A DNA stretch of 54,541 nucleotides, from assembly GCA_020832655.1 (NCBI GenBank), contig JAFIEF010000017.1, positions 1 through 54,541 on the forward strand, read 5' to 3'. The position numbers and the translations under genes were made by a program. Source of the stretch: Paracoccaceae bacterium. Its GTDB lineage: Bacteria > Pseudomonadota > Alphaproteobacteria > Rhodobacterales > Rhodobacteraceae. Positions 40,181 to 47,800 of the stretch are shown here, in pieces. The stretch's first letter is position 1. Every line of letters begins with the position of its first letter. The notes beneath the pieces are model-generated. The model was not told the origin of the DNA. It searched no databases and saw nothing but the letters and a program-made list of their open reading frames with translations.

Positions 40181-42823
40181 TCAGAACGCCGGCACGGTCT
40201 GCCGACGCCGTTGCAGCAAGATCACCCCAAGCAGCAGCAGCAGCGCAGGGATATAGAAGATCTGTGCGGGCATCCGCTCTGCCGGGCGCAGCACTGCATC
40301 CAGCATGACTTGCTGACTACCGTAGAAATCGAAATCCCCCAACGCACGCTGGAAGGGAGAGCCGAACATCGGCTCATCCATCGCAACCCCGTCTTCCGAC
40401 GGCATCAGGAACAACCCTGTGCCCATCATCCGCTGCGCCTCGGGGGTGTCATCGACCATCAGCACCAAGGTTGTGCTGCGCGGATTGCCGGTGTTGAAAT
40501 CCGGCCCCGAGACCGCAAGGCGCAACTCATCCCCCGGCGCGGCGGCTTGCAGAACCTGCTCGAATTCGGTTCCCGGCAGGCTTTCGAATTCTGGTTGAAC
40601 GCGGTCGAGCCAGAAATTCGGCACGAACAGCGTGAAGGCCACCAGCAGCAGCGCTGCGGATTCGTGGTATTTCGAGCGTGCCAGGAAATAGCCCTGCGTG
40701 GCGGCGGCAAACAGCAGCATCGCGAAGGTCGCAATCACGAATATGAAGGCCGCCTGCGCCATCCCCGCCGCCGTGCCCAGATCAACCCCGTAAAGGATAA
40801 GCGTGGGGTTGTAGATGAACAGGAAGGGCAGCGCCAGCGTGCGCAGGCTGTAGAAAAAGGCCTGAAAGCCGGTTCGTATCGGATCACCGCCCGATACCGC
40901 AGAGGCCGCGAAACTCGCCAGCCCCACAGGGGGCGTGACATCCGCCATCAGCCCGAAATAGAACACGAACAGATGCGCCGCGATCAGCGGGATGATCAGC
41001 CCTTCCTGCGCGCCAAGACTGACCACCACAGTTGCCATCAGAGACGACACCACGATGTAATTCGCCGTGGTCGGCAGGCCAAGCCCCAGGATCAGCGAGA
41101 ACACCCCCACCAGCAGCAGCATCAGGAACAGATTGCCCAGCGCCAGCAACTCGACCAGCCCGGCCAGTTCGGTGCCAATCGGCGTGCGGGTGACAGTGGC
41201 CACGATAACCCCGGCGGCCCCGGTGGCCACGGCAATGCCGATCATGTTGCGTGCGCCGGAAATCATGCCATCGACCAGATCGGTAATGCCGTTGCGCAGC
41301 TCGGCCATGAAATTGCCCTCCCCGCGCATCAGGGCTTTCAGCGGACGCTGGGTCAGGATGATGAACAGCATCGTGATTACAGCGAAATAAGCCGATTTCG
41401 CGGGCGACTGACGTTCGACCATCAAAAACCAGATCAGCACCAGAATCGGCAGCAGGTAATGCAGCCCGGTGGGGACGACCTCTTTCATCACCGGCAGGGT
41501 GATCTTCTTGGCCTTTGGGTCATCAAGTTCCAGATCCGCGCGTTTCGACGCAACCCACAGACACGCCAGATAGATCACCAGAATTGCACTCAGGATAACG
41601 GCGCCCGAAATCGCGGGTGCCACATCGCGCAGGAAGTTCACAGTCGCGATGACACCGTAGAACGCCGCGCCTGCGACCACAAAACCTATTGCCACCTTCA
41701 GCAGCATTGCCAGCAGGCTCGACCCCTGGCCAAGCGCCGGGATGCCGTTCTTCAGCGCTTCCAGATGCACGATATAGATCAGTGCGATATAGCTGATCAC
41801 CGCCGGAATGAAGGCGTGCTTGATCACTTCCAGATAGGAAATGCCCACAAACTCGACCATCAGAAAGGCCGCTGCCCCCATCACCGGCGGCATGATCTGG
41901 CCATTGACCGATGATGACACCTCGACCGCGCCTGCCTTTTCAGATGAAAAGCCCACGCGCTTCATCAGCGGAATGGTGAAAGTGCCGGTTGTCACCACAT
42001 TCGCGATGGACGAACCGGAAATAAGCCCGGTCGCGCCCGACCCCACCACGGCCGCCTTGGCAGGGCCGCCGCGCAGATGCCCCAGCCCGGCAAAGGCCAG
42101 CTTGATGAAATAATTGCCTGCACCGGCCTTGTCGAGCAGCGCGCCGAACAGAACGAACAGGAACACAAAGGCTGTGGACACCCCCAGCGGAATGCCGAAC
42201 ACGCCTTCGGTTGACAGCCATTGCGTGTTGATGATGCCGGTAAAGCTGCGCCCCTCATGCGCGATCAGATCGGGGATCAGCCAGCCCTGCCCGAAATAGC
42301 TATAGGCCAGGAATACACTGCCGACGATGGTCAGCGCCGGGCCCAGCGCGCGGCGGCTGGCTTCCAGCAGCAGCACAAGCCCGATGATGCCGACGATGAT
42401 CTGGGTCTGGGTGGGCAGACCTTCGCGTGCCGTGCCGGAGATCTCGCGCGAGAACCAGAACACGTAAAACGCGCAGCCCGCAGCAGTAATGGCAAGGATC
42501 CAGTCATACCAGGGGATGTAGCGGCGCGGCGAGGCCTTGAAGGCCGGATAGGCCAGAAAGGCAAGAAACAGTGCAAATGTCAGATGCATGGGCCGGGTCT
42601 GGTCTGACCCGATGACCCGCACAAAGGGGATATGCTGCGCCCAGCTGAATTGCGGGTCGGCGATCCATATCTGGAAGCACGACCACAGGAAGGCGACGAT
42701 CGCGATCAGGGCGGCGATATAGCGGTTATCGGGGCTGCGTCCACCTGAATCCGTGCTGGCGACCAGATCCTGAAGCTCGTCATCGCTGAACTGACGCCCT
42801 GCCGGCTTTTGCTCGGTCGACAT
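40181..42823 (-). CDS. TAXI-TRAP transporter fused permease (DctQM) with C-terminal extension
   Basis: Inner-membrane permease of 880 residues fusing the small (Q) and large (M) TRAP subunits; about 16 hydrophobic segments. Large-subunit motifs: GSGATGLISGSSIANVVTTGTFTIPLMKR, VMGAAAFLMVEF, GLGLPTTANYIV and HLFVFYFGLMADVTPPVGLASFAA. A C-terminal domain (~700-855) with a PDZ-like/DUF3394 look and one last membrane helix follows. Start 42823 (MSTEQK) avoids a 22-residue low-complexity extension. The sodium- or proton-driven substrate is not readable. Confidence 0.92.
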   Translation of the reverse strand: MSTEQKPAGRQFSDDELQDLVASTDSGGRSPDNRYIAALIAIVAFLWSCFQIWIADPQFSWAQHIPFVRVIGSDQTRPMHLTFALFLAFLAYPAFKASPRRYIPWYDWILAITAAGCAFYVFWFSREISGTAREGLPTQTQIIVGIIGLVLLLEASRRALGPALTIVGSVFLAYSYFGQGWLIPDLIAHEGRSFTGIINTQWLSTEGVFGIPLGVSTAFVFLFVLFGALLDKAGAGNYFIKLAFAGLGHLRGGPAKAAVVGSGATGLISGSSIANVVTTGTFTIPLMKRVGFSSEKAGAVEVSSSVNGQIMPPVMGAAAFLMVEFVGISYLEVIKHAFIPAVISYIALIYIVHLEALKNGIPALGQGSSLLAMLLKVAIGFVVAGAAFYGVIATVNFLRDVAPAISGAVILSAILVIYLACLWVASKRADLELDDPKAKKITLPVMKEVVPTGLHYLLPILVLIWFLMVERQSPAKSAYFAVITMLFIILTQRPLKALMRGEGNFMAELRNGITDLVDGMISGARNMIGIAVATGAAGVIVATVTRTPIGTELAGLVELLALGNLFLMLLLVGVFSLILGLGLPTTANYIVVSSLMATVVVSLGAQEGLIIPLIAAHLFVFYFGLMADVTPPVGLASFAASAVSGGDPIRTGFQAFFYSLRTLALPFLFIYNPTLILYGVDLGTAAGMAQAAFIFVIATFAMLLFAAATQGYFLARSKYHESAALLLVAFTLFVPNFWLDRVQPEFESLPGTEFEQVLQAAAPGDELRLAVSGPDFNTGNPRSTTLVLMVDDTPEAQRMMGTGLFLMPSEDGVAMDEPMFGSPFQRALGDFDFYGSQQVMLDAVLRPAERMPAQIFYIPALLLLLGVILLQRRRQTVPAF

Positions 42824-42884
42824 GCAGCCACCCCCTGCTGAATTGTTCTTGAAATCTGTCGGGGCAGCCAGAAAGGGCTGCCAA

Positions 42885-42913
42885 GGCATGGCCCCCGATC
42901 AAGGGGCCATGCC
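42885..42913 (-). promoter_or_regulatory. Intercistronic stem-loop between receptor and permease
   Basis: An 11-bp perfect stem GGCATGGCCCC/GGGGCCATGCC with a 7-base loop in the gap after the TAXI receptor stop. No T-run follows on the minus strand. It probably stabilises or partly ends the receptor transcript so the receptor is made in excess of the permease, as is usual in TRAP operons. Confidence 0.65.
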
Positions 42914-42938
42914 AGGCTGACATGCAGATTGCCTGCGA

Positions 42939-43904
42939 TCAGTCGATCAGACCGGCTTCGCGGTAGTAGCGCTCTGCACCGTCATGCAGCGGGGCCGACA
43001 GCCCGTCGCTGACCATCTCTGCAGGGTCAAGACCGGCCAGGGCGGGGTGCAGCCCGGTGAACTGGTCCAGATTCTCGAAGATGGCCTTGGTCACCTGGTA
43101 GGCGACTTCGTCGCTGACCGCATCCGAGGATACGAAGGTCGCGCCGACACCGAAGGTGGTGACATCTTCGGCCGTGCCGCGATACATCCCGCCCGGAATG
43201 GTTGCCATGCGGTAATAGTCGCGCTCTTCGACCAATGCGCGGATCACGTCATTATCGACATTCACCAGCACGGTGTCACAGGCAGTGGTGGCTTCCTGAA
43301 TAGCGCCAGAGGGGTGGCCCACAGTGTAGACGATGGCGTCCACATTGTTGTCGCACAGCGCCAGCGACTGTTCGCCTGCGGGCAGTTCGGTGGTCTGGGC
43401 GAAGGTGTCCTCGGTCCAGCCCATTGCTTCCATCACCACTTCCATCGTGCCGCGCTGGCCGGAACCGGGATTGCCGATATTCACACGCTTGCCGGGCAGG
43501 TCATCAAAGCTGGTGATCCCCGCATCGGCGCGCGCCACCACGGTAAACGGCTCCGGGTGCAGCGAGAACATCGCGCGCAGCCCTTCAAATGGGCCGTTTT
43601 CCTCGAAACGCGAGGTTCCGTTGAAGGCATGGAACTGCCAGTCAGACTGCGCCACGCCGAATTCCAGCTCGCCCGAGCGGATAGCGTTGATATTGAAGAT
43701 CGACCCGCCGGTCGATTCCACGCCGCAGCGAATACCATGCTCGGCCCGGTCGCGGTTGACCAGACGGCAGATTGCGCCGCCGGCGGGGTAATACACCCCC
43801 GTCACCCCGCCAGTGCCGATCGAGATGAAGGTTTCCTGCGCAGCGGCGGCGCTGCCAATCATCGCGCCTGCCGCAAGCAACCCTGCTGTCAATGTCTTGT
43901 TCAT
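42939..43904 (-). CDS. TAXI-family TRAP solute receptor
   Basis: Periplasmic binding protein of 321 residues. Signal peptide to about 22 (...SAAAAQE), then the TAXI signature SIGTGGVTGVYYPAGGAICRLVNR, ESTGGSIFNINAIRSGELEFGVAQSDWQF, and GKRVNIGNPGSGQRGTMEVVMEAMG. It feeds the fused permease just downstream. Substrate is unknown (TAXI members bind glutamate, other organic acids). SD GGAGG 5-6 bases before ATG is excellent. Confidence 0.95.
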   Translation of the reverse strand: MNKTLTAGLLAAGAMIGSAAAAQETFISIGTGGVTGVYYPAGGAICRLVNRDRAEHGIRCGVESTGGSIFNINAIRSGELEFGVAQSDWQFHAFNGTSRFEENGPFEGLRAMFSLHPEPFTVVARADAGITSFDDLPGKRVNIGNPGSGQRGTMEVVMEAMGWTEDTFAQTTELPAGEQSLALCDNNVDAIVYTVGHPSGAIQEATTACDTVLVNVDNDVIRALVEERDYYRMATIPGGMYRGTAEDVTTFGVGATFVSSDAVSDEVAYQVTKAIFENLDQFTGLHPALAGLDPAEMVSDGLSAPLHDGAERYYREAGLID

Positions 43905-44059
43905 CTTTACCTCCGTTGGTTGTTCTTGATCGATCGCTGCCGTGAAGGCGCATGCAGGGCATGCCCGTCACGGTCCGATATCGCAACCAAACACCAGCGA
44001 TGGAATCGAGTCAAGCAATTCAAAGCGCTTGCGGTCCGACCCCTGGGTCGCCCGCAGAC

Positions 44060-44473
44060 TCAGCTTTCAAACACCTGCTCAATGCGGGCAAAGCCCTTGA
44101 CCTCGATCGGATTGCCTGACGGATCACGGAAGAACATCGTCCATTGCTCGCCGGGTTCGCCGGCGAAACGCAGGCTGGGCGGGATCACGAACTCGACCCC
44201 GGCTGCGCGCAACCGCTCGGCCAGCGCCTGGAATCGCGCAAGATCCAGCACCAGCCCGAAATGTGGCATCGGCACCATGTGATCGCCCACCTTGCCAGTG
44301 GGGGCACTGGCGAAGGGCGTGCCCAGATGCAGGCTGATCTGGTGGCCGAAGAAATCGAAATCCACCCAGCTCTCGGTGCTGCGCCCCTCGGCACATCCCA
44401 TTACCCCGCCATAAAAGGCGCGTGCAGCCTCCAGATCATCGACATGATAGGCGAAATGAAACGGCATCAGCAT
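44060..44473 (-). CDS. VOC-family (glyoxalase-like) protein
   Basis: A 137-residue protein with the two-fold betaalphabetabetabeta VOC layout: FHFAYHVDDLEAARAFYGGVMG at the start and PHFGLVLDLARFQALAERLRAAGVEF...GEQWTMFFRDPSGNPIEVKGF at the end. Possible metal ligands are His (FHFAYHV), His (MPHFG) and Glu (PIEVK). It may be a ring-cleaving dioxygenase or an isomerase; no specific reaction is assigned. SD GGAGGG is 8 bases upstream of the ATG. It lies 155 bases downstream of the TAXI receptor's 5' end, so it is outside that operon. Confidence 0.85.
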   Translation of the reverse strand: MLMPFHFAYHVDDLEAARAFYGGVMGCAEGRSTESWVDFDFFGHQISLHLGTPFASAPTGKVGDHMVPMPHFGLVLDLARFQALAERLRAAGVEFVIPPSLRFAGEPGEQWTMFFRDPSGNPIEVKGFARIEQVFES

Positions 44474-44536
44474 GGGCAGACCCTCCCTTTACCCTCAGAA
44501 CTGCCGCATCCCGGCCCTCAAGGCAAGCATGCAGGG

Positions 44537-44648
44537 TTTCATCTTGCCCGAAATACTCAATTGGTGTCCGGGGGTTTCTCAAGGGGGGCTGGCCCCCCTT
44601 GAGGCGGGGGGTTCTGGCCGCAGGTCAGCCGGGGGGCGGCAGCCCCCC
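44537..44648 (-). repeat. Dispersed element with tandem GC hairpins, copy 2
   Basis: Starts TTTCATCTTGCCCGAAATA (20 of 22 positions match copy 1 at 4665) and is followed by a 12-bp inverted repeat CTCAAGGGGGGC/GCCCCCCTTGAG (44578-44603) and a second GGGGGGC-ggca-GCCCCCC (44631-44648). It occupies part of the 358-base gap 44474-44831 between the divergent VOC and ileS genes. Confidence 0.55.
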
Positions 44649-44676
44649 GTCCCCTGTCGCGGATGCGCCTTGCCAC

Positions 44677-44705
44677 TGGACGCGCAAGGGCAGGCCACCT
44701 ATAAG
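44677..44705 (+). promoter_or_regulatory. Putative ileS promoter
   Basis: TGGACG (44677-44682), a 17-base spacer and TATAAG (44700-44705). Transcription would start near 44712, practically at the leader ATG (44713), so the leader would be leaderless or nearly so. The CCTATAAGGCG context recurs before rpiA. Confidence 0.5.
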
Positions 44706-44712
44706 GCGGCGC

Positions 44713-44763
44713 ATGGCACAGATAGCGATCATCCTTCAGCGAATTAGCGTCCCGGCACTCTGA
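44713..44763 (+). CDS. Putative ileS leader peptide (16 residues, 4 Ile codons)
   Basis: ORF MAQIAIILQRISVPAL with Ile codons ATA, ATC, ATC and ATT. It lies between the putative promoter and ileS. ATA is very rare in this GC-rich DNA. The last codons overlap the 5' arm of a perfect 10-bp hairpin, so the ribosome position on the Ile codons could change folding. This is the layout expected of an attenuator sensing charged tRNA-Ile. No conservation could be checked. Confidence 0.4.
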   Translation: MAQIAIILQRISVPAL

Positions 44764-44827
44764 CGCGCCCGGAGTGCCGGGTCAGCCTTGGCGCCCGCCA
44801 TTTCCCTGACATCGCGAAAAGTGACCC
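44751..44827 (+). promoter_or_regulatory. Candidate ileS attenuator hairpins
   Basis: Hairpin 1: CCCGGCACTC (44751-44760) with GAGTGCCGGG (44772-44781), loop containing the leader stop codon. Alternative: GGGTCA (44779-44784), overlapping hairpin 1, can pair with TGACCC (44822-44827), 5 bases before the ileS ATG. The two structures exclude each other. No T-run is present, so translational control is more likely than intrinsic termination. Confidence 0.4.
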
Positions 44828-44831
44828 TGCC

Positions 44832-47800
44832 ATGAGTGACACCCCTGACTACAAAGACACGCTGTTCCTGCCGCAAACCGATTTTCCCATGCGCGCAGGC
44901 CTGCCATCGCGCGAACCCGACTGGCTGGCACGCTGGGAACGTATCGGCATCTATGACCGGCTGCGCGAGAACGCCGAAGGCCGCAAGCCCTTCATCCTGC
45001 ATGACGGCCCGCCTTACGCCAATGGACATCTGCATATCGGGCACGCGCTCAACAAGGTTCTGAAGGATTTCATCACCCGCAGCCAGCAGATGCTGGGGCG
45101 GGACGCACGCTATGTGCCGGGCTGGGATTGCCACGGCCTGCCCATCGAGTGGAAGATCGAGGAGCAATACCGCGCCAAGGGGCTGGACAAGGACGCGGTG
45201 GATATCGTCGATTTCCGTCAGGAATGCCGCCGCTTCGCCGAAGGCTGGATCGAGGTGCAGCGCGAGGAATTCAAGCGCCTTGGCATCACCGGCAAATGGG
45301 ATGACCCCTATCTGACGATGGATTACCACGCCGAGGCCGTGATCGCGGATGAGTTCATGAAACTCGTGATGAACGGCGCGCTCTATCAGGGGTCGAAGCC
45401 CGTGATGTGGTCGCCGGTGGAAAAAACCGCGCTGGCCGAGGCGGAGGTCGAGTATCACGAGCACACATCGCACACGATCTGGGTGGGTTTTCCGGTTGAG
45501 CATCTGAAATACGCAATCGTCGGAGAAGAACCGCTTTCAGACGGCGTTGACTTGACCCGTGAGATGGGAAAACCGTCGACGAGATCGTCAAGCAAAGAAC
45601 TTTCAATAGAAGAGCTTAAAGCGCATTCGACATGTGTCGTGATCTGGACGACAACACCGTGGACGATCCCGCAAAACCGTGCAGTCGCGTTTAACCCAAG
45701 CTTTGCTGCGGTGTCTTACAGTATCTACGAGGTATCTGAGGTCGATGAGGGTTCAAAACTTTCAGTCGGCCAATGGATTATGCTTGCAGATGGATTATCG
45801 GTTGGCTTGCAAGAGAAATTCAAAGCAAAGCTTTTCCAACGCTATCAGGTCCAAAATGAATTCTTGAAATCAATCATCCTCGCCCACCCTTTCCGAGGCG
45901 TTGTCGAGGGCGACGAAGATAACGGGAACAACTGGAATTTCGAAGTGCCCTTGCTCCCCGGCGATCACGTCACCAATGACGCTGGCACCGGGTTCGTTCA
46001 CACCGCCCCCAGCCATGGCGATGACGACTATCAGTTGTATCTCAAGTTCAAGGATGAGCATCCTGACTTTAAGATGACGTATAACGTCGAACCAGACGGC
46101 AGCTACCGCGCCGATCTGCCGCTGTTCGGGGGCGAGGTCATCATCAAGCCCGATGGCAAGGAAGGCGGCGCGAATGTGGCCGTCATCAAGCAACTGGCCT
46201 ATGCAGGCGCGTTGTTTGCCAAGGGCAAACTGCGCCACAGTTACCCCCATAGCTGGCGGTCAAAGGCGCCGCTGATCTATCGCAACACCGCGCAATGGTT
46301 TGCGGCCATCGACAAGCCGGTCGATGATGGGATGGGCGAGCATGGCGACACCATCCGCGCCCGCGCGCTCGAATCCATCGACAAATTGGTGAAATGGACT
46401 CCCCAGACCGGGCGCAACCGGCTCTATTCGATGATCGAGGCGCGGCCCGACTGGGTGCTCTCGCGCCAGCGCGCCTGGGGCGTGCCGCTGACCTGTTTCA
46501 CCAAAAAGGGTGCCAAGCCCACCGACCCCGATTTCCTGCTGCGCGATGCGCAGGTGAATGCCCGCATCAAGGATGCATTCGAGGCCGAAGGCGCGGATAT
46601 CTGGTATCGCGCGGGCTTCAAGGAACGCATGCTGGACGGGCTGCATGACCCTGACGCCTATGAGCAGGTGTTCGACATCCTTGATGTGTGGTTCGATTCA
46701 GGCTCGACCCATGCCTTCGTGCTGCGTGACCGCGAAGATGGCAGCCCCGACGGGATTGCCGACCTTTATCTGGAAGGGACCGACCAGCATCGCGGCTGGT
46801 TTCATTCCTCGATGCTGCAAGCCTGCGCCACCAAGGGGCGCGCGCCCTATAGGGGCGTGCTGACGCATGGTTTCACGCTGGACGAAAAGGGCATGAAAAT
46901 GTCCAAATCGCTTGGCAACACGGTCGCGCCGCAAGAGGTGATCAACGAATATGGCGCGGATATCCTGCGGCTGTGGGTGGCGCAATCCGATTACACGGTC
47001 GATCTGCGCATTGGCCGCGAGATCCTGAAAGGCGTGGCCGACAGCTATCGCCGGTTGCGCAACACCATGCGCTTCCTGTTGGGCAATCTGGACGGGTTCA
47101 GCGATGACGAACGCGTTGCCCCCGCCGATATGCCGGAACTGGAACAATGGGTGCTGCACCGTCTGGCGGAACTCGATATGCAGGTGCGCAAGGGCTATGG
47201 CACCTACGATTTTCAGGGCGTGTTCCAGAAGCTTTTTACCTTCGCGACATCGGATCTGTCGGCCTTCTATTTCGACATCCGCAAGGACGCGCTTTACTGC
47301 GACGGGGCCGACAGCCTGCGTCGCCGGTCTGCGCGCACTGTGCTGGACATATTGTTCCACCGCCTGACCACATGGCTGGCGCCCGTGCTGGCCTTCACGA
47401 TGGAAGATGTCTGGCTGTCGCGCTTCCCCGGCGATGACAGTTCGGTGCATTTGCAGGACTTCCCCGCCACGCCTGCCGACTGGCTGAATGAACCGCTGGC
47501 GCAGAAATGGGCGGGCATCCGTCAGGCGCGGCGCGTCGTCACGGCGGCGCTGGAAATCCAGCGCCGCGACAAGGTGATCGGCGCATCATTGGAAGCCGCC
47601 CCGGTGGTGCATGTGCGTGACGACGCCATCATGGCGGCGCTGAAATCGGTCGCGTTTGCCGATATCTGCATCACCTCTGGCATGGCGCTGACCGCAGACC
47701 CGATCCCGGCTGAAGCCTTCCGCCTGCCCGAAGTGCAGGGTGTGGGGGTGGTGTTCGAACGCGCCGAGGGCGAAAAATGCCAGCGCTGCTGGAAGATCAC

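Follow-up and report, generated by a model that had tools for sequence, protein, structure and literature searches.

A candidate isoleucine-responsive leader element upstream of ileS in Alphaproteobacteria

The ileS leader locus

The window analysed here is a stretch of 54,541 nucleotides from a Paracoccaceae bacterium (assembly GCA_020832655.1, contig JAFIEF010000017.1, positions 1 to 54,541 of the forward strand), and the element in question is a short isoleucine-rich leader open reading frame (ORF) with an overlapping hairpin, which lies between a putative promoter and ileS (Table 1). The start codon of ileS is the ATG at 44832. The leader ORF, ATGGCACAGATAGCGATCATCCTTCAGCGAATTAGCGTCCCGGCACTCTGA, comprises 16 codons from the ATG at 44713 and ends with a TGA stop codon at 44761-44763. 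An earlier note, made from the letters of this DNA alone, had claimed a 16-codon leader before ileS with four Ile codons including the rare ATA, and this leader is present as described, its Ile codons being ATA, ATC, ATC, and ATT. The perfect 10-base-pair hairpin that the same note placed over the end of the leader was confirmed as well, its 5′ arm being made of the leader's last codons.

Table 1 Features of the ileS leader locus in the window.
Feature	Position	Strand	Evidence
ileS, isoleucyl-tRNA synthetase, 1010 residues	44832..47864	+	Pfam tRNA-synt_1 and zf-FPG_IleRS
Leader ORF MAQIAIILQRISVPAL (then stop), probably leaderless	44713..44763	+	ORF reading, genus comparison, frame test
CGA-AUU codon pair, proposed Ile sensor (AUU at 44743-44745)	44740..44745	+	Genus and family conservation
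16-nucleotide core CGAATTAGCGTCCCGG, proposed span from P-site codon to ribosome leading edge	44740..44755	+	
Hairpin 5′ arm CCCGGCACTC, within the leader ORF	44751..44760	+	
Hairpin 3′ arm GAGTGCCGGG	44772..44781	+	
-35-like hexamer CTGGAC	44676..44681	+	29 of 30 genus loci; ATGGAC in L015
-10 hexamer TATAAG	44700..44705	+	TATAA at 12-13 nucleotides before the leader start codon, all 30 genus loci

In the promoter region, CTGGAC is followed by 18 nucleotides, TATAAG, 7 nucleotides, and then the A of the leader ATG. This spacing, found at all 30 genus loci described below, supports the leaderless start that had been suggested, and the likely first transcribed base is the A of the leader ATG. 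A scan of this region of the window for strict sigma-70 consensus sites returned none. Positions 44000-45500 gave three weak matches in Rfam, all at chance level and far below threshold, none of them a T-box. The predicted fold of the window RNA is only a modest gain over shuffled sequences (z of -1.91, with 9 of 200 shuffles equally good), so that the case rests on the strength of the comparison with other genomes. The genome of the window itself carries one copy of the element, as defined by the exact pattern.

Conservation in the genus and the family

An ileS match was obtained in 35 of 37 genomes of the same genus, and 30 of these loci, chosen without reference to any motif, were inspected. 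The hairpin is present at all of them, and all 30 leaders have 15-19 residues and end in R-I-S-x-P-A-L followed by a stop codon, with S replaced once by R. A covariance model of the genus core only (R1), used with strict filters, located the element in 171 of 295 genomes of the family. Among the 88 family loci that were compared (L034-L121), 85 have an ileS motif and all 85 carry the element before it; two of the others end too soon to be judged (L043, L081), and the third, a second weak match in one genome (L116 in G166), has no ileS motif.

A second model (R2), built from 89 diverse family sequences, matched 148 of the 149 genomes of an order-level sample and all 72 genera in it, all of which belong to the same family in that taxonomy. 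In a check independent of the motif, ileS was sought by its protein in 21 genomes, namely 18 without an R1 match, two with weak R2 matches, and one without an R2 match. The gene was located in 20 of them, and the element was present at 17 of these 20 loci, once with a changed core (L298).

The typical family leader reads M-x4-A-I-I-(I)-R-I-[T/S/I]-x-P-A-L before the stop codon, and Ile makes up 305 of the 1237 residues of the family leaders. For the leader codon counts, four of 118 loci were skipped, three without an ileS motif (L043, L081, L116) and one core variant (L068). The duplicates L001, L032, and L033 were omitted from the leader counts, and L089 was omitted from the family alignment (A4) and from the later codon and pairing counts. 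A4 thereby holds 89 of 114 loci, with 24 of the 30 genus loci and L089 left out. The earlier note had proposed a comparison of Rhodobacteraceae relatives as a test, and both the Ile codons and the stem are indeed kept in them.

Codon core and hairpin covariation

The genes of the window prefer CGC for Arg and ATC for Ile; in six window ORFs, CGA accounts for 5 of 183 Arg codons and ATT for 27 of 164 Ile codons. Yet the CGA-ATT pair of the leader is nearly fixed, with CGA at 114 of 114 and ATT at 112 of 113 loci, all picked with a CGAAT pattern. The very rare ATA to which the earlier note had drawn attention occurs in the window but lacks conservation. The Ile codon that lasts is the ATT at 44743-44745, whose first base lies 8 nucleotides upstream of the first base of the hairpin.

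A few natural variants of the core were encountered. ATT is replaced by ATA at one locus (L051), where Ile is retained, and the seventh base of the core is altered at three loci (L068, L089, L298). Three loci of one genus (L274, L276, L277) have AGC for CGA, which changes R to S, and retain both ATT and the hairpin; they represent a natural experiment on what CGA contributes. Ile is retained in these exceptions, which makes an Ile codon in this position the most persistent feature that we observed.

The hairpin (stem 1) and a second stem (stem 2, arms 3 and 4, GGCGY/GCRCC) were compared with 500 shuffles of the family sequences. The two stems are paired in 90.0% of cells, against 86.8% in the shuffles, and show a covariation of 0.169 against 0.115, and no shuffle reached either value. 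Two other measures, double-change pairs and pair types, were reached by 36 and 35 of the 500 shuffles, respectively. In the six sequences of the genus that A4 contains, stem 2 is out of register with the family. Compensatory variants can be recognised by eye, such as CTCGGCG/CGCCGAG in L084 and CCGACG/CGTCGG in L266. RNAalifold, applied to the family alignment, recovered only the base of stem 1. A further candidate pairing before ileS, GCGAAUU/AAUUCGC, was noticed on inspection at some of the genus loci; judged by eye, it does not seem to extend through the family, and it was set aside.

Distribution across Alphaproteobacteria

R2 matched 44 of 240 Alphaproteobacteria, many of them weakly, and all 17 matches fetched from outside the family carry CGAATTA-N4-CCCGG. 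The exact core (CGA-AUU-A-N4-CCCGG) together with the far arm of the hairpin occurs in 94 of 385 alphaproteobacterial genomes, against 2 for a reversed-pattern control, and a sample of the phylum contained this same pattern in 33 of 67 Alphaproteobacteria against 2 of 182 other Pseudomonadota. Among the matches listed, named carriers include Rhizobium, Agrobacterium pusense, Mesorhizobium, Methylobacterium, Bosea, Ruegeria, Roseovarius, Phenylobacterium, and Azospirillum. Two of the matches listed that carry the core (L381, L409) are metagenome-assembled genomes (MAGs) of Phenylobacterium, which we take to belong to the same family as Caulobacter.

The element keeps to a single reading frame. 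An ATG at most 75 nucleotides upstream and with no stop codon in between was found in the frame of CGA for 362 of 369 distinct elements, many of which are from Rhodobacteraceae, against 24 and 40 in the other two frames; elements closer than 75 nucleotides (upstream) or 200 nucleotides (downstream) to the end of their locus were omitted. Outside the family, the corresponding counts are 96 of 102 against 6 and 16. For 15 elements in records labelled as non-alphaproteobacterial, which were set apart, the three frames gave chance-like counts of 3, 4, and 4. A -10-like hexamer precedes the in-frame ATG by 12-14 nucleotides in 247 of the 362 leaders, against 10 at a control distance, so leaderless starts seem to be common. 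Judged by its pattern, the device extends across the class, beyond the single window in which it was noticed, and to genes other than ileS.

Two occurrences in records labelled as outside the class deserve mention. One Planctomycetota MAG contains CGAATTAAAAGCCCGGCATTTT..AAATGCCGGG at three places (L359, L363, L380), two of them without a leader ORF; this has the look of an unrelated repeat matching the pattern. A MAG labelled Marinimicrobia (L323) has the leader MNQRINSARIMAPAL, followed by a stop codon, before an ilvA-type ORF; we read this as a mislabelled contig or a transfer.

Genes behind the element

At 51 of the 102 distinct sites outside the family, ileS lies in the fetched flank, and at 48 of these it lies within 200 nucleotides of the hairpin. 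Three loci have the element, a small ACT-like ORF, and then ileS (L178, L179, L210), whereas L243 has ileS at a distance of 1.2 kb; the neighbourhood of the ACT-like ORF and ileS in those three loci hints at a common function. Among the 119 stretches listed from the named collection, at least 80 have ileS and at least eight an ACT-like gene nearby.

The other 51 sites are followed by a small ACT-like protein (39, assigned by a match to a profile built from 19 such proteins), an AAA_33 kinase-like protein (5), an NTF2/SnoaL-like protein (4), a PALP protein (1), or an unrecognised ORF (2), where Pfam scans covered one kinase, one NTF2-like protein (with a match below the cut-off), and two PALP proteins, and the rest were grouped by eye or motif. 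The small protein is perhaps ACT-like and similar to the small subunit of acetolactate synthase (AHAS), which we regard as a lead from profile comparison. The enzyme behind the element in L201, PALP by Pfam, is of the threonine-deaminase (ilvA) type, and in L160 an ACT-like gene is followed by an ilvA-type PALP gene. Further ilvA-type ORFs were recognised by eye behind the element in L323, L375, and L433, the last from Azospirillum brasilense.

The leaders of ACT-class loci such as L180, L181, L218, L238, and L249 cross the hairpin and end 11-20 nucleotides past the start codon of the ACT-like gene, an overlap that suggests translational coupling. Before one ACT-like gene, two tandem copies of the element stand about 200 bp apart (L250, L252, L253). 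Kinase-like genes follow the element in L156, L157 (the AAA_33 match), L251, L205, and L236, and also in L372, L390, and L427; a leader of this class is MWMMCGTRRISCPA, followed by a stop codon, with no evident link to isoleucine. NTF2/SnoaL-like genes follow it in L165, L187, L188, and L190, where a short leader ends in RI[S/T]xPA and a stop codon.

Proposed mechanism

Measured from the first base of the codon in its P site, a ribosome reaches about 16 nucleotides to its leading edge, and the core spans 16 nucleotides from the C of CGA through the end of CCCGG. When Ile-tRNA is short, a ribosome would wait while CGA occupies its P site and AUU its A site, and its leading edge would then lie on CCCGG, the base of the 5′ arm, keeping the hairpin open. 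When Ile-tRNA is ample, the ribosome would pass and leave at the stop codon, and the hairpin would form. The formed hairpin would act directly, with no antiterminator partner, and lower the expression of ileS.

We modelled the folding for different ribosome positions in the 59 of 89 family leaders that have four recognisable arms. The mean pairing probability of stem 1 is 0.97 in the free RNA and 0.96 with a ribosome three codons earlier, and falls to 0.04 with the ribosome at AUU and to 0.00 when it stands at the stop codon. Stem 2 (arms 3 and 4) remains at 0.70 (0.77 free) under a ribosome at AUU, where arms 2 and 3 pair with a mean probability of only 0.02. These values support the view that the ribosome opens the hairpin directly, and they argue against an antiterminator switch.

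As for the output, one possibility would be pausing of RNA polymerase and Rho-dependent termination in a C-rich stretch; the alternative would be a weak terminator where a run of U follows, as in some Rhizobiales. A C-rich stretch was indeed seen by eye after the hairpin and before ileS in Rhodobacteraceae, which makes Rho possible, and a U-tract stands behind the hairpin in some Rhizobiales (L346, L348). Any particular output step named here is doubtful.

Several observations weigh against this mechanism, its output, or its extension to the class. In the model, the hairpin opens under a ribosome at the stop codon as well, so the opening is not specific to AUU. Rhodobacteraceae leaders have additional Ile codons upstream of AUU, which are hard to fit to a simple on-switch because a ribosome stalled there leaves the hairpin closed. 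The terminator scan of the window returned none, with no U-tract 3′ of the hairpin, and at least five T among the seven nucleotides after the hairpin were found in only 11 of 387 elements, so an ordinary terminator does not account for the output; nor did we find a conserved partner that would free or block the ileS start. The invariance of CGA and ATT is biased, because the loci were picked with the CGAAT pattern, and the element is absent at 3 of the 20 loci found through ileS itself. Outside the family, ileS leaders are often poor in Ile apart from the R-I pair (64 of 612 residues before R-I). The name ACT-like is only a lead, given that the two small proteins tested had no Pfam match, that in the PDB the profile found three AHAS small subunits with E-values of 0.2-0.6 below an unrelated leucine-rich repeat protein in the top row (E of 0.086), and that 1 of 19 members matched the NCBIfam AHAS small subunit (6e-4). 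Finally, we know of no isoleucine link for the kinase and NTF2-like targets (9 of the 102 sites).

Taken together, we lean, by a small measure, towards a ribosome-mediated leader element that would respond to isoleucyl-tRNA and control ileS in cis through direct opening of the hairpin. Control in cis in response to isoleucine is the part that we consider quite probable, whereas we give about even chances to the ribosome at AUU opening the hairpin as the signal. If that opening is the signal, isoleucine shortage would rather likely raise than lower ileS expression.

Alternative explanations

The alternative that survives best, although unlikely, is that CGAAUUA is a site in the RNA, either cut by RNase E between GA and AUU or bound by a protein or a small RNA, whose use depends on ribosome traffic, with the hairpin stabilising the downstream fragment. 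GAAUU fits the RNase E consensus RN/WUU, and seven near-invariant bases, among them the opening base of the following codon, exceed what coding needs, at loci picked with CGAAT. The lock to one reading frame argues against such a site, as does the fact that the Ile codon outlives the heptamer: it is ATA in L051, CGA is lost at three loci, and base 7 is changed in L068 and L089.

A classical attenuator of the trp or ilv type, in which arm 2 would swap to the downstream arm 3 or the segment after arm 2 would pair near the ileS start, is improbable too. It could draw on the four arms recognised in 59 of 89 leaders, on the covariation of stem 2, and on arms 2 and 3 being complementary in 85.5% of cells; shuffles, however, are complementary in 85.2%, and the predicted pairing of arms 2 and 3 is nearly nil with the ribosome at AUU, where stem 2 persists. 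The earlier note had proposed just such a switch of two exclusive pairings, the second of which, GGGTCA/TGACCC, would reach the ileS start. This pairing occurs in only 1 of the 30 genus sequences, the window itself, and is therefore not part of the device. The switch is not supported either, folding of the family leaders predicting no other partner for arm 2 even under a ribosome at the Ile codon. The missing U-tract in the window and the off-register stem 2 in six genus sequences of A4 point the same way.

We also consider it improbable that the encoded peptide arrests the ribosome, in the manner of SecM and perhaps in response to a small molecule, with R-I-x-x-P-[AV] as the stalling sequence and the codons mattering through their residues only. 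Known arrest peptides include some that stall with Pro in the A site, and R, I, P, and A or V recur throughout the class, which is partly fixed by the search pattern. Against this stand the codons, CGA and ATT being nearly fixed despite the prevalence of CGC and ATC in the window genes, the coincidence of P-A with the hairpin arm, the variable x positions, and the three loci that have S for R and retain I. An upstream ORF and hairpin that set a constitutive level of ileS through coupling or Rho, with no isoleucine signal, would agree with the many ACT-class leaders that overlap the start of the next gene and with the C-rich stretch seen by eye in Rhodobacteraceae, but is hardly probable given the Ile codon that holds its place before the hairpin even where other core bases changed, the presence of ileS and ilvA-type genes among the targets, and the Ile-rich family leaders.

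Comparison with known systems

In the proposed model, a ribosome at regulatory codons decides the fate of a hairpin, as in attenuators of the trp or ilv type, such as the ilvBN attenuator of Caulobacter mentioned in PMC4117421. Our element shares with them a short ORF with a coding signature (its translation being predicted), cognate regulatory codons, and a position ahead of a gene that serves the amino acid in question; it differs in the hairpin with a U-tract, absent in the window and in most elements, and in the exclusive antiterminator pairing, which prediction and comparison do not support. Of the architecture of peptide-leader attenuation claimed in the earlier note, the Ile leader with its conserved hairpin before ileS is supported, and the switch between exclusive pairings is not. 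Our verdict is that the element would work like a leader-peptide attenuator minus the U-tract terminator and antiterminator of the trp type.

One of the closest known counterparts is CCNA_03934 of Caulobacter crescentus, called an ileS leader coding sequence in a study that mapped coding sequences by ribosome profiling and reported 375 leaderless mRNAs (PMC4117421). A figure legend there gives it as a negative control and describes neither mechanism nor conservation. Both it and the window leader are small coding sequences leading ileS, a likeness by description. The uORFC-8-2 motif of Rhodobacterales, a cysS leader with tandem Cys codons and a U-run terminator (PMC8632094), resembles our element in that it comes from the same order and its leader ORF carries codons for the amino acid handled by the synthetase encoded behind it; the window leader differs in having neither tandem Cys codons before cysS nor a 3′ U-run. 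The main text of PMC8632094 never mentions ileS by name, and its supplements may hold a sister motif.

The trpL gene of Sinorhizobium meliloti encodes the 14-residue peptide peTrpL from a leaderless ORF and acts as a tryptophan attenuator before trpE (PMC10117765). Our leader is likewise a short, probably leaderless ORF of an alphaproteobacterium, unlike trpL, which serves tryptophan and trpE. The T-boxes of ileS reported for Actinobacteria, RNAs that bind tRNA and sense the charging of Ile-tRNA (PMC1262725), also stand before ileS, and a sensor of Ile-tRNA charging is what we propose here; positions 44000-45500 of the window, unlike them, have no T-box match in Rfam. We found no account of the element as a module shared by the class in open-licence PMC papers; subscription literature and supplements lay outside that scope.

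The recurrence of the element across the class, also before other genes with likely ties to isoleucine, suggests that it is probably a shared, little-described isoleucine-shortage switch of Alphaproteobacteria. More tentatively, with odds that we would put below even, it may define a class-wide isoleucine-shortage regulon of ileS, ilvA-type, ACT-like (AHAS-small-subunit-like), kinase, and NTF2-like genes, in which a footprint-spaced CGA-AUU pair and hairpin would act by direct occlusion, without an antiterminator, and the choice of codon rather than the number of codons would set the sensitivity. If true, rhizobia, roseobacters, and relatives of Caulobacter would have a common and easily scanned isoleucine-shortage control before an essential synthetase, and a regulatory setting would be suggested for a family of small stand-alone ACT-like proteins. 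The element would then be a minimal attenuator that takes its signal from a single codon pair, one footprint away from a hairpin, and a clean test of codon identity, ribosome position, and RNA folding combined.

Surroundings of the leader

Upstream of the promoter, the window contains the G/C-rich inverted repeats CAAGGGGGGCTGGCCCCCCTTGA and GGGGGGCGGCAGCCCCCC (44578-44655), and similar-looking repeats stand at the same place in six genus loci (L004, L005, L009, L017, L018, L020). The minus strand, diverging from the ileS leader, carries what we take, by resemblance, to be TRAP-transporter-like genes and a glyoxalase-like ORF (40181-43904 and 44060-44473).

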